This document shows, piece after piece, positions 35,931-42,178 of a stretch of DNA of 64,000 nt. Location: contig NZ_VTKY01000006.1 of assembly GCF_020514095.1 (NCBI RefSeq), positions 1-64,000 on the forward strand, written 5' to 3'. The notes beneath the pieces were generated by a model, which was not told the DNA's origin, did not search any database, and saw only the letters and a program-made list of their open reading frames with translations. The DNA is from Synechococcus sp. MU1643 (lineage in GTDB: Bacteria > Cyanobacteriota > Cyanobacteriia > PCC-6307 > Cyanobiaceae). A program made the translations under genes and the position numbers. Numbering within the stretch: the first letter of the stretch is position 1; each line of letters starts with the position of its first letter.

Positions 35931-36071
35931 ATGGAAACGTCGTCCCCAGCCCTGTCCGTCGCCATTGGCGTACTCGCTGTTTTGTTCGGACTCACCGGAT
36001 TTGGTGTGTACCAGGCCTTTGGACCTCCATCAAAAGCACTCGACGACCCGTTCGACGATCACGAGGACTGA
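35931..36071 (+). CDS. psbN: PsbN protein
   Basis: 46 residues: [20 protein letters not shown], one membrane helix, then [20 protein letters not shown] and an acidic end. PsbN is needed for assembly of the PSII reaction centre but is not a stable subunit. Transcribed divergently from psbH. Its end overlaps the GH38 gene by 13 bp. Confidence 0.96.
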
Positions 36072-38998
36072 TCAACCACCAGGGAGACGAGTTCCCCCGG
36101 GGCGATCACCACTGCATCAGAAGCATCGGAATCTGCTTGCCTGCGGACACTCCACCCCGCACCGGGGGTCCAACAGCAGCGTGCTGACCCCGCATTGAGC
36201 AGCTTCAGCAGGCAAGCGTCGACATAGCGCTCCAAGGCCACCGGCACGAGTTGAAGCGGCATCGATGGGAACCACTGACGCAGCTCCGCAGGCAAAGCCG
36301 CACACCACCCGGGCTCGCGAAACGCAATGGCCGCCTGCGGCACACCGGCATCACTCCAGGAGCCGGAGAACGGCATAAGGGCCAAACGCTGGCGATGCCA
36401 TCCCTGATCGGCGCTTGGGTCAGGCCAGGTCGGACCGCGCAGCAGCGAAATGCCGAGTCGGTCTGAAGACCAATCAACACCCTGGGGGCCGTCCATCAAC
36501 ACAGCCATCCCGCCTCCGGGAGCTGGCGACTGCGAAGCGAGCCATGAGATCACAGGGACTTCCCAGCGGGCTTGTTCCCGAGCCGTCATCGGTTCAGAGG
36601 GCCGTTCGATCACCCCTCCGCTGGTGTCGGCAGCGATACGGACAGCAGGGGTCGCCAATGGCAGGTCCAGGCGCAGCAGCTCATGGGTCTGACACCAGTC
36701 GACACTGCAGATCAGCTCCAACCAGGGCGTGTCGGCCTTCAGCCGCAGGTCCAGACGCATACAACTGGCGCCGAGCTGGCGCCGCAGCACCAGATGAGAC
36801 ACCAGGGGGCCCTGGTCGAGCCATTCCACGACATCTAATGAAAGGACACCCAAGGGCTGGGATCGGTAGTCCGCCGCCAGATCCCAGGCATCCCAGAATT
36901 CGCCCCGGTCCCGATATCGCTCCAACTGCAGGGGGGAAGACAACTGACTTCGTCCATCGCGATCCCGCAGAGCCAGCAGTCCTGCCGCGGAGACATCAAT
37001 GTCGATCAGACCATTGCCCACGCGCCAAACTCCCGCCCCAAGCGACGCGATGACCACAGGCTGACGGGGTTGAGCAGCGCCGAACGCCAAGCCTGGTTCA
37101 CGCCGGAGCGGCACAGAACAAATCCCGTGCTGACGCGGTAACTGCACCCAGGTGCCACCACCGGCAGCCGCTTGCTGCGGCAGTGAAACTGCGTTGGCTG
37201 ACCACGACCCCACCGGAAGACGAACCAGAGGAGACCAGGAGGCCAAGGGCTGCAGACCCCACCAACTCCATTCCGCCGCTGTGCCCTTCAGCCGAGGCAG
37301 CCTTGCCAGCCGCCGGTCGCGCTCGCAGCGGGCCTGGCGCCGGGCCGAGCGCCAAACCGGTTCCGCCTGTTCAAAAACCTCCGGGATCGAAGTTCCTGGA
37401 AGAATGTCGTGAAACTGCTGAAACAACAGCGGGCGCCAATCGCTGACACCGCCTTCGCGGCCGGCCATGGCCAACAGGGCCGAAGCAGTGTCGGCTTCCC
37501 GCAAAAGCCGCTCAAGTGTTCGGTTGTGGCGCTTCTGATCGGGACGGCTGGTGGCGCAACCGCGGTGCAACTCCAGGAAGAGCTCATCGCGCCACACCGG
37601 CCAGGCCTGATCGTCCTGCTGCAGGTTTGTCAGGAACTCCCGCACAGTGCCGGCACGGGTGGGCAAGGCGGCCGCTTGGCCCTCCCAGAGCTCGATCTCC
37701 TCCAGCAACTCCTCGGTGGGACCACCACCGTGATCACCAACACCAGGAATCCAGAGCGCCGCCTCCAGCCCCGTGGCCTGATGCCATGCCCGCTGCTCTC
37801 CCAGCATCACCACAGGATCGGCTCGACGCCCGATCGGCGGCAGCATCAGGCTGCGCAATTCAGACCGTCCCCGTCCGCGCCAGCGGAACAAACGATGGGG
37901 GAAAGGGTTCTCAGCATTCCAGGCCAGCTTGTGGGTGCAGAACCAGCGCACACCAGTGGCTGCCGCCACCGCAGGCAGGCCAGCAGCGAAGCCAAAGCTG
38001 TCCGGCAACCAGGCCAGCTCATGGGTCCATTCCGGGAAGCGGCGCCGGCTGTCGTCCTGACCGAGCACAAACTGATTCCACAACGACGCCGTGCTGACCA
38101 GCACACAGTCCGTCTCCACCCAAGGGCCATTGATCGGTTCCCAGCGGCCGGCGCGGCTGGCCACCTGGATCTCCGCAAACAGAGCCGGGCGATGTTGCTC
38201 CATCCAGGCGTAGAGAGCCGGCGTGGAATGGGCAAAGCGCAGCTCAGGCCAGCGACGCATCAGAGCCAACGCTGATCGGAAGGTGCGTTCAGCGGCCTGC
38301 CAGGTGTCGGCGACCGGCCAGAGCCAAGCCAGATCGAGATGGGCATGACCCAGCCAATGCAACGACCCTCGTGGAGGGTCCACCTGATCCAGGTGCGTTG
38401 CAACAGCGGCCTGCGCCTCAACACCGCTGGGATTCAGATCCGCCCAATGCGATGGCAGGTCTCCATCCGCCGCCAAATACAGTTCCAAGGCAGCAGGCAA
38501 CAAGGTGCCCTCGGGATCAGGGCCAGCGGCCTGCGGCTCCAGGTCGAGATGACTGCTAATCAGAGCTCCGTCGTCATGCAAAGGGCTGCAGAGCTCCAGG
38601 ACAAGATCCAGCGCCGCCCCCTCACGACAACCCTCAGGCAACGGCCAACGACAGGCGGTATCGAACAGATCTCCCTCATGAACCAGCACACCATCCACCC
38701 AGAGCCGCATCTGCTCGGCCCACCAGCTCAGCACCAGCCGGGCACGGCAGGAATCACTGGCACACCATCCATCAGGCCAGCTCAACCGCTGCTCAAGCCG
38801 CAGCCACTGTCGCCCCCTTGGCCAGATCAGCAGACCACGTTTGGCCCAGTCAGGACGGTGCGTTGATCCCCAGCTGTCATCGAGGAAAAACCCAGCCTGG
38901 GTGGCGCCTGAGCGGCGCCACCCGGCGCGCAAATCACGACGCGAGCGACTGCGAAACGTTTCAATCCACTCCGATCGACCGACCTGATCAGGGTTCAT
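36059..38998 (-). CDS. GH38 alpha-mannosidase
   Basis: 979 residues from ATG 38998, which follows AAGGGG. Catalytic GH38 (beta/alpha) barrel with zinc motif HAHLDLAWLWP (about 218-228), the nucleophile Asp in LAWLPDSFGF (about 328-337) and HDILPGTSIPEVFEQ in the three-helix bundle; C-terminal beta domains follow. The closest named activity is class II alpha-mannosidase. No signal peptide, so likely cytoplasmic, trimming or recycling mannose-containing glycans. Role in this phototroph is unknown. No neighbouring sugar operon. Confidence 0.92.
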   Translation of the reverse strand: MNPDQVGRSEWIETFRSRSRRDLRAGWRRSGATQAGFFLDDSWGSTHRPDWAKRGLLIWPRGRQWLRLEQRLSWPDGWCASDSCRARLVLSWWAEQMRLWVDGVLVHEGDLFDTACRWPLPEGCREGAALDLVLELCSPLHDDGALISSHLDLEPQAAGPDPEGTLLPAALELYLAADGDLPSHWADLNPSGVEAQAAVATHLDQVDPPRGSLHWLGHAHLDLAWLWPVADTWQAAERTFRSALALMRRWPELRFAHSTPALYAWMEQHRPALFAEIQVASRAGRWEPINGPWVETDCVLVSTASLWNQFVLGQDDSRRRFPEWTHELAWLPDSFGFAAGLPAVAAATGVRWFCTHKLAWNAENPFPHRLFRWRGRGRSELRSLMLPPIGRRADPVVMLGEQRAWHQATGLEAALWIPGVGDHGGGPTEELLEEIELWEGQAAALPTRAGTVREFLTNLQQDDQAWPVWRDELFLELHRGCATSRPDQKRHNRTLERLLREADTASALLAMAGREGGVSDWRPLLFQQFHDILPGTSIPEVFEQAEPVWRSARRQARCERDRRLARLPRLKGTAAEWSWWGLQPLASWSPLVRLPVGSWSANAVSLPQQAAAGGGTWVQLPRQHGICSVPLRREPGLAFGAAQPRQPVVIASLGAGVWRVGNGLIDIDVSAAGLLALRDRDGRSQLSSPLQLERYRDRGEFWDAWDLAADYRSQPLGVLSLDVVEWLDQGPLVSHLVLRRQLGASCMRLDLRLKADTPWLELICSVDWCQTHELLRLDLPLATPAVRIAADTSGGVIERPSEPMTAREQARWEVPVISWLASQSPAPGGGMAVLMDGPQGVDWSSDRLGISLLRGPTWPDPSADQGWHRQRLALMPFSGSWSDAGVPQAAIAFREPGWCAALPAELRQWFPSMPLQLVPVALERYVDACLLKLLNAGSARCCWTPGAGWSVRRQADSDASDAVVIAPGELVSLVVDQSS

Positions 38999-39062
38999 TC
39001 CCCTTCTGACGCTGTCATGCCCCATAAGATGATGCCCTTGTCACAGACGCCGGTCGGTCTCC

Positions 39063-39182
39063 ATGCTCGCCCTCAAGATCTCCGTCTACTCGGTTGTCTT
39101 CTTCTTCCTCGGCATCTTTGTGTTCGGGTTTCTTGCGAGCGATCCAAGCCGCACCCCCAGCCGCAAAGACCTGGAAGATTGA
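39063..39182 (+). CDS. psbI: Photosystem II reaction centre protein PsbI
   Basis: 39 residues: [20 protein letters not shown] (one helix) then [18 protein letters not shown], typical PsbI. It is next to D1 in the reaction centre. Divergent from the mannosidase gene, 64 bp between starts. Confidence 0.96.
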
Positions 39183-39277: not shown

Positions 39278-42178
39278 TTGGCGGCGCACCGCCTTCTTTT
39301 TGTATTGACCGGAACCCTGATCACAGGGCTAGCTTCCGCCTTGCCAGCAACGGCCCGTTCCGCTGAATCACGGTCCGAGACAATTTTTCAAGCTCCTGCG
39401 AACCTTAAAGTTCGCGCTGACCGCCAATATTCCGACACCAAGTCGAAAGTCAACGTCGCTGAAGGCGACGTTTCTGTTTTCCTCGGGAACGCTGAACTGC
39501 ACGCCGATCGCATCGAATTTGATGCGGCCTATCGCACGCTCTACGCTCGCGGCGCTGTCCGCTTCAGGCGCGGCAGTCAATACTTTCAAGCGTCAAGCTT
39601 CCGTTACAACCTCGTTCAACAGGAAGGTCTGCTCAATGATGTTTATGGGGTCATCGACCTCGAGGAGCCCCTCTCCAATCCCCTAAACAACCTCCAAACG
39701 AACACAGCGGTTGCTGAGTCAGCCACGCCAGCAAGTCGAGCAGACTTGCCTCCCGTGGCCTGTCCACCACTGCTCGCTCCGGTTCCTGACTGGCATCCTC
39801 AGCCCTGGGCAGTAACGGCATGGGGCGGTCAGATGATTGATGCAGATTTCGGCCCCGCTTTCCTTTTCGACGGTCGAATGCGTCCAGAAGTCCTGCTGGG
39901 CATCGGCTTACAGAAACGAATCAAGAAAGCAGGCCCATTTGCCATTGAACTTGAGGCTGACTTTTTCCACCACATTGCCAATCAGCAGCAGGCTGGTGAA
40001 TTCAACCAAAGCCAGCCCTACGCCGAACTCACTTCCCAAAGCTTTAACGAAGTGATTCTGGGAATCGGAGCACGTTTATGGGTTCAGCCCTGGCTGAGTT
40101 TCAGCGTCATTGAAGGCGTCAGCTACAACACCGATGTCAGCCTGTACGAAAAAACCTTCCGCGAGAACAACAGCCAACTCCTGAACTATTTGGGCTTCGA
40201 AGTTGAAGCTGCACTATCCCCCGACTTATCACTAGTCGGCAGGATTCACCACCGCTCCGGAGTTTTTGGTCTTTACAACGGAGTCTCGGGGGGCAGCAAT
40301 GGTTACTTGCTTGGCCTCCGCTACCGCTGGGGAAGGGACATGCCCAAACGTGAGAGCGCTGTCATGCCCCCGCTACCGGCATGTGAAGGACCCGATCGCG
40401 CCCAACGCATCAAACCCTCGTCCCTCTCTGACCGCCTCGACTCGATTGCTTTCGGCGATGGAGGTCTTCCGCAGCGCCACGTCTCGATCAACAAGACCAC
40501 CAAGCAACAATCGATTCCCCCGGCAAAGCAGCAGTCCATGCGCAATGAGGCGATCGCCCAGATCGACCAGCGGATTTCGAACATTGCTTCAAAGGGCAGC
40601 TTCAGCATCGAGCAACGCGGAGGAATCAGAACCAAGCGCTCAAATTCTTCAATTCAGGATGAAAACCGCTTTGGAGCAATCCGACCTACTCAACTGAAGA
40701 TTCGCGGAAAAACTCAGCTTCTTACCGGAACGATTAGTCGCTGGAGAGTTCAAGCCTCAAAGGTCTTAATCACAAAGGATGGCTGGAAAGCTGATCGAAT
40801 GGGTTTCAGCAACGACCCCTTCACACCGGCGCAAACAAGGATTGATGCAGAGGGTGTTGTCGCCAGGGAACAAGCCAATGGCGACGTGCTGATTTCGGCG
40901 CGGCGCAACCGCCTGATCTTCGAAGAGCGATTGCCCATCCCAGTTACGCGTCGACAACGCATAAAAGGAGAGGAAGATGTGGAAAACCGTTGGGTCTTTG
41001 GGTTCGACGACAGGGATCGTGACGGCTTCTACGTTGGACGCAATCTCAAGCCGATTCAGCTAAATCGCGATTTCACACTGACTCTAGAGCCCCAGTTCAT
41101 GGTGCAACGAGCCAACAATGGCGAAACCAGTAGCTATCCAGCACCGGGCAAATCAGCCGACAGTGAACATGTCGACCAGCCCACCACGACTGCTGACCTG
41201 TTCGGCCTTGAAGCCAAACTCAGGGGACAGCTCTGGGATTGGGACATCAACCTGAAGAGCGACATAAGCAGTTTCAAACCGCAGAATTTTGCCAACGGCA
41301 CCCGCTACTGGGGCACTATCGAAAACGATTTCGAGCTGCCCTGGGTCGGGGACGTCACCGCCCGTTTGTTTGGCGCTTATCGCTACCGGACCTGGAATGG
41401 CTCCTTGGGAGAAACCAATGTGTACTCAGCACTGGGTGGTTTCATCGAGCAGAGACAGGCCTTCGAATTGGGCAAGTTGAGCAACTCCTATATATGGCGA
41501 ATCGGTGCAGGTAACTACCAGGCGGACAGCTTCACCAGCACCAATCTCACTGAAACCCTGCGTTCCAACTTCTATGGCTCCCTCACCAGCAGCTATCCGA
41601 TCTGGCGCGGAGAGACTGCTCCTCTAACCCCGGAGAAGGCATACCGCTACTCACCGGTAGCGATCGTTCCAGGCCTCAGTCTCAACACCAATGTCAACAC
41701 CCTCCTTTCGGCCTACGGCAATGGCACCAGTCAAAGCACAATCAGCTTGTCGGGGGGCTCTTCTCTCACTCTGGGAACCTTCAGCAAACCCTTTCTTGAC
41801 TACACCAAGCTTTCGATCAGCGGCGGTATCACCATCAAACAGGGCAGCAGCCCCTTTGATTTCGACCAGGCCATCGACTTGGGCACTCTTGGCATCGGCG
41901 TCACCCAACAGATCGCTGGTCCCTTAATCCTTAATGCAGGCTTCGGAGTCAATGTAGATCCAGCTTCCGAGTACTACGGCGACGTAATTCACTCCAACAT
42001 CGAACTGAGCTGGCAACGACGTAGCTACGACATCGGGCTCTACCTCAATCCCTACGAAGGTATCGCCGGTTTCCGATTCAGACTCCACGACTTTGACTTC
42101 AAGGGCACAGGCGTGCCGTTTGTGCCTTACACCCCAACGAACTGGATGGAAACCACCAACACTGATCGACCCTTCTGA
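39278..42178 (+). CDS. DUF3769/LptD-like outer-membrane protein with embedded barrel domain
   Basis: 966 residues from a TTG, with a signal peptide (LLFVLTGTLITGLASALPATA). Residues about 45-130 are OstA/LptA-like (ADRIEFDAAYRTLYARGAVRF). Residues about 172-352 form a separate beta-barrel-like domain (HPQPWAVTAWGGQM...LLNYLGFEVEAALS...GRIHHRSGVFGLYNG...LGLRYRWG) that resembles PagL/acyloxyacyl-hydrolase-like cyanobacterial proteins. After a linker, a second OstA-like part (about 470-575) leads into the long DUF3769 barrel ending FRLHDFDFKGTGVPFVPYTP. By inference it inserts LPS into the outer membrane. Base composition looks a little more A+T-rich than neighbours. Confidence 0.88.
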   Translation: MAAHRLLFVLTGTLITGLASALPATARSAESRSETIFQAPANLKVRADRQYSDTKSKVNVAEGDVSVFLGNAELHADRIEFDAAYRTLYARGAVRFRRGSQYFQASSFRYNLVQQEGLLNDVYGVIDLEEPLSNPLNNLQTNTAVAESATPASRADLPPVACPPLLAPVPDWHPQPWAVTAWGGQMIDADFGPAFLFDGRMRPEVLLGIGLQKRIKKAGPFAIELEADFFHHIANQQQAGEFNQSQPYAELTSQSFNEVILGIGARLWVQPWLSFSVIEGVSYNTDVSLYEKTFRENNSQLLNYLGFEVEAALSPDLSLVGRIHHRSGVFGLYNGVSGGSNGYLLGLRYRWGRDMPKRESAVMPPLPACEGPDRAQRIKPSSLSDRLDSIAFGDGGLPQRHVSINKTTKQQSIPPAKQQSMRNEAIAQIDQRISNIASKGSFSIEQRGGIRTKRSNSSIQDENRFGAIRPTQLKIRGKTQLLTGTISRWRVQASKVLITKDGWKADRMGFSNDPFTPAQTRIDAEGVVAREQANGDVLISARRNRLIFEERLPIPVTRRQRIKGEEDVENRWVFGFDDRDRDGFYVGRNLKPIQLNRDFTLTLEPQFMVQRANNGETSSYPAPGKSADSEHVDQPTTTADLFGLEAKLRGQLWDWDINLKSDISSFKPQNFANGTRYWGTIENDFELPWVGDVTARLFGAYRYRTWNGSLGETNVYSALGGFIEQRQAFELGKLSNSYIWRIGAGNYQADSFTSTNLTETLRSNFYGSLTSSYPIWRGETAPLTPEKAYRYSPVAIVPGLSLNTNVNTLLSAYGNGTSQSTISLSGGSSLTLGTFSKPFLDYTKLSISGGITIKQGSSPFDFDQAIDLGTLGIGVTQQIAGPLILNAGFGVNVDPASEYYGDVIHSNIELSWQRRSYDIGLYLNPYEGIAGFRFRLHDFDFKGTGVPFVPYTPTNWMETTNTDRPF

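Follow-up and report, generated by a model that had tools for sequence, protein, structure and literature searches.

LptD is among the few outer-membrane proteins that are conserved across cyanobacteria, and the marine Synechococcus-type hosts considered here, which rank among the most abundant phototrophs on Earth, possess an unusually simple LPS. The catalytic residues of PagL are His126, Ser128, and Glu140, while OMPLA (PldA) is a larger barrel that is active as a calcium-dependent dimer. The His and Ser of PagL are essential for activity (PMC4958258), and the OMPLA triad, His142-Ser144-Asn156, is located on the barrel exterior (PMC5043575). The cyanobacterial LptD has been described (Haarmann et al., 2010, as cited in PMC4365693) and corresponds to DUF3769 (PMC4365693). 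Outer-membrane proteins with multiple barrels, such as GfcD, are also known (Solan et al., 2021, as cited in PMC11494523). The protein described here resembles the latter in that one chain is predicted to contain two complete barrels, but one of the barrels is the conserved LPS translocon and the second is inserted in its periplasmic part. What is described here from sequences is an LptD with a PagL-like barrel fused into it, together with the geometry of the resulting cassette and the HRSG family to which the barrel belongs.

The gene lies in a window of 64,000 nucleotides from Synechococcus sp. MU1643 (contig NZ_VTKY01000006.1), and its features are collected in Table 1. The open reading frame is intact and without interruption. 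Residues 484-940 match PF12600 (DUF3769) at 453.8 bits, far above the curated cut-off of 20.5, and the model places an OstA-like periplasmic domain beside a large barrel. The best structural match of the whole chain is LptD (Z 18.0; Foldseek and VIA). Thus, the protein is a cyanobacterial LptD, the LPS translocon. At the N-terminus, the match to the LptD_N profile is weak (residues 44-92, 17.5 against a Pfam cut-off of 20.4), as is an LptA match over the same region (residues ~44-92) in the NCBIfam scan. DUF3769 occurs in a single copy in the source genome and throughout the class Cyanobacteriia in the genomes sampled. Directly upstream of lptD is psbI (39 aa, PF02532) at 39063-39182 (+), and a complete alpha-mannosidase of 988 aa (glycoside hydrolase family 38) at 36059-39025 (-) adjoins the psbI-lptD pair.

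Table 1. Features of the lptD gene and its predicted protein (nucleotide positions in the window)
Feature	Residues	Positions	Strand	Basis or remark
lptD (DUF3769) with inserted barrel	966 aa	39278..42178	+	TTG start; signal peptide ~residues 1-27
First OstA/LptA-like beta-jellyroll part	44-127	39407..39658	+	weak LptD_N and LptA profile matches; whole-chain model; LptA 2r1a alignment
Cys162	162	39761..39763	+	invariant in 40/40 fused LptDs
Inserted eight-stranded PagL-like beta-barrel (predicted)	177-351	39806..40330	+	AlphaFold2 (domain, whole chain); structural matches
Extracellular loop, strands 3-4 (predicted)	235-253	39980..40036	+	enlarged in fused copies
Glu308	308	40199..40201	+	invariant; strand 6, inward-facing; not the catalytic acid
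H325-R326-S327, proposed catalytic pair H325/S327	325-327	40250..40258	+	invariant; lipid face, outer end of strand 7
Asn341, proposed third residue	341	40298..40300	+	N in 21/25 and T in 4/25 diverse homologues
Cys369	369	40382..40384	+	invariant; presumed disulfide partner of Cys162
DUF3769 match: second OstA-like part (488-588) and main LptD barrel (~599-942)	484-940	40727..42097	+	Pfam; model; structural matches

The segment of residues 172-353, which reads WHPQPWAVTAWGG...GRIHHRSGVFGLYNGVSGGSNGYLLGLRYRWGR in agreement with the earlier description, had been viewed in the initial annotation as a complete barrel inserted in LptD between two OstA-like parts. Two outcomes were named as being at odds with that view, namely that the segment belongs to the main barrel or that it lacks any likeness to PagL-type folds. 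Structure prediction returned neither, as the segment is separate and PagL-like. The AlphaFold2 model of residues 159-357, built with an alignment of 49 homologues, has a pLDDT of 90.5, a pTM of 0.84, and eight strands (177-188, 200-218, 221-234, 254-270, 273-284, 301-312, 317-327, and 339-351). The whole-chain AlphaFold2 model (pLDDT 78.3, pTM 0.70) contains the identical eight strands at 177-351. There, the small barrel is flanked by OstA-like strands at 44-127 and 488-588, with a separate main barrel at ~599-942 and low-confidence linkers at 131-156 and in parts of 352-480. One chain is thus predicted to form two complete barrels, and the insertion of a barrel in LptD is well supported by the models. 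It is barely conceivable that the segment instead belongs to the main LptD barrel or arose as an artefact of assembly. The first option is ruled out by the separate barrel in both predictions, the reading frames are unbroken across dozens of independent genomes, and homologues of the small barrel exist as stand-alone proteins.

The flanking OstA-like parts also appear to belong together. The whole chain matches LptA at a Z of 14.2, and because the alignment with LptA 2r1a runs across residues 36..514, the two parts seem to form a single slide that is interrupted by the small barrel, as judged from the alignment ranges.

The fold of the small barrel is close to that of PagL (PF09411), as the initial annotation had suspected. 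In VIA comparisons of the domain model, PagL (2erv) ranked first with a Z of 16.9 and 1.9 A over 135/146 residues, and the small barrel taken from the whole-chain model gave similar values (Z 16.7, 2.1 A, 139/150). This eight-stranded fold is, however, common to other small barrels. The designed barrel 6x9z and OprF (4rlc) fall within 1 Z of the PagL match to the domain model, and the fold alone therefore cannot show function. In Foldseek's own ranking, OmpA and Ail headed the list for the domain, and PagL came first only after realignment with VIA. A sequence relationship to PagL did not hold up. The insert (172-353) matched no Pfam family at E up to 1 and no NCBIfam family, the stand-alone homologues likewise matched none, with PF09411 absent even at E up to 10, and searches of PDB sequences returned chance matches only. 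Profile-profile comparison with PF09411 members scored 16.5, within the range of controls that reached 19.2 when reversed and up to 22.2 when shuffled. Since the score is no better than the controls, common ancestry with PagL is not supported by sequence, and neither is membership in the PagL family. No PF09411 PagL was found in the source genome. PagL is also free-standing, whereas the barrel described here lies inside LptD.

The scan of genome contigs used the motif as bait, so the conservation claims are taken from a set collected without a motif filter and from a diverse family set. In the 25 diverse homologues and 29 unfiltered fused copies, H325, R326, and S327 are 100% conserved. Two distant relatives (L229 and L232) have E or Q instead of the neighboring H324, a difference that sets the proposed catalytic His325 apart from it. 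The odd-numbered residues form the more hydrophobic face in 8/8 strands, and for this reason H325, S327, and N341 would face the lipid while R322, H324, R326, and E308 would point inward. Among the last strands, polar conservation on the lipid face is seen at H325, S327, N341, and N303. In the proposed topology, both ends of the small barrel would lie on the periplasmic side, so that strand 7 runs outward and H325/S327 sit at its outer-leaflet end. Based on this strand assignment, the invariant His-x-Ser pointed out in the initial annotation occupies the catalytic position of PagL, that is, lipid-facing at the outer end of strand 7. The surrounding motif differs, however, being HRSG here and HxSN in PagL.

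The third catalytic residue, which the initial annotation regarded as not evident, is most likely N341, in place of PagL Glu140. N341 precedes the end of strand 8 by 10 residues, E140 precedes the end of the printed 2erv sequence by 10 residues, and VIA pairs the end of the small barrel with the end of PagL. Asn, or Thr in some alphaproteobacterial relatives, thus stands where PagL has an acidic residue, although the third position also varies among the PF09411 members collected (E17 D4 T3 N2 S1 G1 I1). E308 was considered as the catalytic acid and rejected because the hydrophobicity pattern turns it inward and its place on strand 6 is too low by about four residues.

The combination of His-x-Ser with Asn recalls OMPLA, which gives a precedent for Asn as the third residue of a lipid hydrolase, and H325, S327, and N341 are present in the sequence. 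This likeness could also argue for a different substrate, in which case the small barrel would hydrolyze other outer-membrane lipids (phospholipid, sulfolipid, or galactolipid) and clear mislocalized lipids at the LPS exit. Such a role appears unlikely. OMPLA is a 12-stranded barrel and a calcium-dependent dimer, whereas the small barrel matches the eight-stranded PagL in fold. Moreover, the location in LptD makes LPS the nearest substrate. The two barrels also differ in the motif (HRSG here but HxSNG in OMPLA) and in the spacing from Ser to Asn (14 here but 12 in OMPLA), and the PldA profile had no match in Pfam scans of the insert and the stand-alone homologues.

Conservation further bears on whether the small barrel binds rather than hydrolyzes. 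As a sensor or binder of surface ligands, or as a site of adhesion or phage interaction, it would use the conserved His/Ser as a binding site and could draw on an extracellular loop that is specific to the fused form. The interval 233-253 comprises 12-26 residues in the fused copies but 3 in most stand-alone relatives and 10 in that of Cyanobium sp. CH-040. This enlarged loop is partly conserved, in fused copies only, and could be in contact with the main barrel or with the sugar part of LPS. A cyanophage-like contig also has its own copy of the barrel. However, conservation is strongest where strands 7 and 8 meet the lipid and not in the loops, and the phage copy is known from one contig, which makes this interpretation highly improbable.

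The barrel is embedded in LptD with an exact spacing. C162 and C369, the only cysteines of the LptD in the window, presumably form a disulfide. Residues near both are modeled with modest confidence in the whole chain. Among 40 fused homologues, the distance from Cys162 to the barrel block is invariably 10 residues, the block is 171-185 residues long (180 in most), and its end lies 16-21 residues (mostly 17) from Cys369, while the linker ahead of Cys162 varies from 21 to 129 residues. The fixed block length and Cys162 spacing, set against the variable upstream linker, show that the insertion is not a matter of chance. By this comparison of sequences, the small barrel is a conserved and precise cassette between two invariant cysteines. 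Ordinary cyanobacterial LptDs, which share the DUF3769 region, the N-terminal OstA-like part, and the structural match to LptD, differ in that they possess neither the inserted barrel nor the flanking pair. Most of those examined are cysteine-free or have a few cysteines near the N-terminus. The LptDs of Cyanobium CH-040 and genus g10 are without the barrel and have two cysteines about 31 residues apart at the same place (ACPxL...LPAPAGCPG).

So rigid a cassette could also be maintained for structural reasons. The small barrel may no longer be an enzyme but a structural module. It could fix the OstA slide to the membrane, stabilize the main barrel or gate, or stand in for an accessory subunit, which would fit the invariant cysteines, and the enlarged, partly conserved loop could form an interface. 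The LptDs of streamlined Prochlorococcus, which have lost the barrel and the Cys pair together, fit this role as well, and that these organisms manage without the barrel counts against a hydrolase. Nevertheless, no structural reason is evident for the conserved polar H325, S327, and N341 on the lipid face, and free-standing relatives with no LptD in the chain conserve H325 and S327 equally well. On balance, a purely structural role is considered unlikely.

A hydrolase within the translocon is thus the preferred reading. At about an even chance, the small barrel is a putative outer-membrane lipid hydrolase, probably a lipid A deacylase, for which we infer enzyme activity. In the proposed sequence of events, a free-standing outer-membrane barrel gene would once have inserted between two cysteines of the periplasmic part of LptD. 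The small barrel would then be tethered to the OstA slide, clasped at its base by the C162-C369 disulfide, and held beside the exit of the LptD barrel, where it could act on LPS during delivery. H325 and S327 would lie in the outer leaflet facing the lipid, with N341 alongside on strand 8, and this His-Ser-Asn hydrolase would release an ester-bound acyl chain, either from lipid A or from another outer-membrane lipid. LPS that leaves the LptD gate would meet the lipid-facing site and have one acyl chain hydrolyzed. More tentatively, and at somewhat less than even chance, the putative lipid A hydrolase, tethered to the slide by its disulfide, deacylates each LPS on its entry into the outer leaflet in most members of the Synechococcus-Cyanobium-Prochlorococcus family and was given up, along with the cysteines, during the streamlining of Prochlorococcus. 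The lipid A of Synechococcus WH8102 and CC9311 is reported to have four acyl chains (PMC4113827) and to be phosphate-free (PMC4113827; PMC4515613). Four acyl chains are compatible with deacylation but do not require it, because fewer chains could be added initially. If the second barrel is indeed a lipid A hydrolase, the delivery and editing of LPS would be carried out by one machine.

The initial annotation correctly recognized an LptD with an additional barrel and called the pairing of LPS placement with lipid A modification or sensing unusual in marine Synechococcus. The arrangement is not peculiar to this strain. LptDs of the family normally have it, the exceptions being streamlined Prochlorococcus and one basal lineage. 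Without a motif filter, the barrel block was found in 33/386 genomes of the phylum, and in the survey of domain order that the initial annotation had suggested, the inserted block is common to the 40 fused homologues and absent from ordinary cyanobacterial LptDs. Stand-alone copies are present in Halomicronema, two further non-picocyanobacterial genomes, Cyanobium CH-040, one gammaproteobacterial MAG, and one Rhodovibrio MAG, and in 12/240 genomes of the Rhodovibrio class. The C-terminal residue of most of them is aromatic and closes the last strand, as is typical of free outer-membrane proteins. These sequences define an HRSG-barrel family that also extends to Proteobacteria and is so far without a Pfam or NCBIfam model. 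A possible second copy in the source genome (C8, E 0.02) was dismissed as a chance match that overlaps other genes and contains stops.

In Cyanobium sp. CH-040, a separate barrel gene (L033 4134-5099 (-), equal to L116 3707-4675 (+)) accompanies an LptD with the Cys pair only. In this basal relative, the two parts of the fusion thus occur naturally as separate genes. The LptD tree places the CH-040/g10 lineage as sister to all other family members. A single gain accounts for the barrel-bearing proteins, and the barrel-free Prochlorococcus group (100/99) is nested within them, which indicates one loss. Support for the ingroup fork is moderate (82/92). A tree of the barrels alone unites the free-standing gene of CH-040 with the fused copies (100/98), and a branch (99/84) splits the cyanobacterial from the proteobacterial barrels. 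The LptD phylogeny suggests that the barrel was inserted once, close to the base of the Synechococcus-Cyanobium-Prochlorococcus family, and that streamlined Prochlorococcus lost it once. The most parsimonious account is that a barrel gene, free-standing at first, entered lptD between pre-existing cysteines and later disappeared together with them. An essential translocon would thus have captured a free barrel gene and subsequently lost it, a clear example from nature in which a sister lineage without the inserted barrel still preserves the empty insertion site.

Several copies occur in other settings. The cyanophage-like contig mentioned above (L233 2986-3498; IMGVR_UViG_3300038961_000079) encodes a 170-aa stand-alone copy (GRIHHRSG...GGSNGYLLG) that is packed tightly among neighboring genes and has no evident signal peptide. 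The contig also bears purC and a T4-type clamp-loader gene. No further phage copies were found in named phage genomes or in IMG/VR. In L229, a 296-aa ORF, an alphaproteobacterial barrel follows an N-terminal stretch that resembles a phage or virion protein, possibly as another fusion or as a frame artefact. Lastly, a record titled as a Bifidobacterium breve MAG (L128) contains a cyanobacterial lptD with the barrel inside and seems to be misnamed or contaminated.
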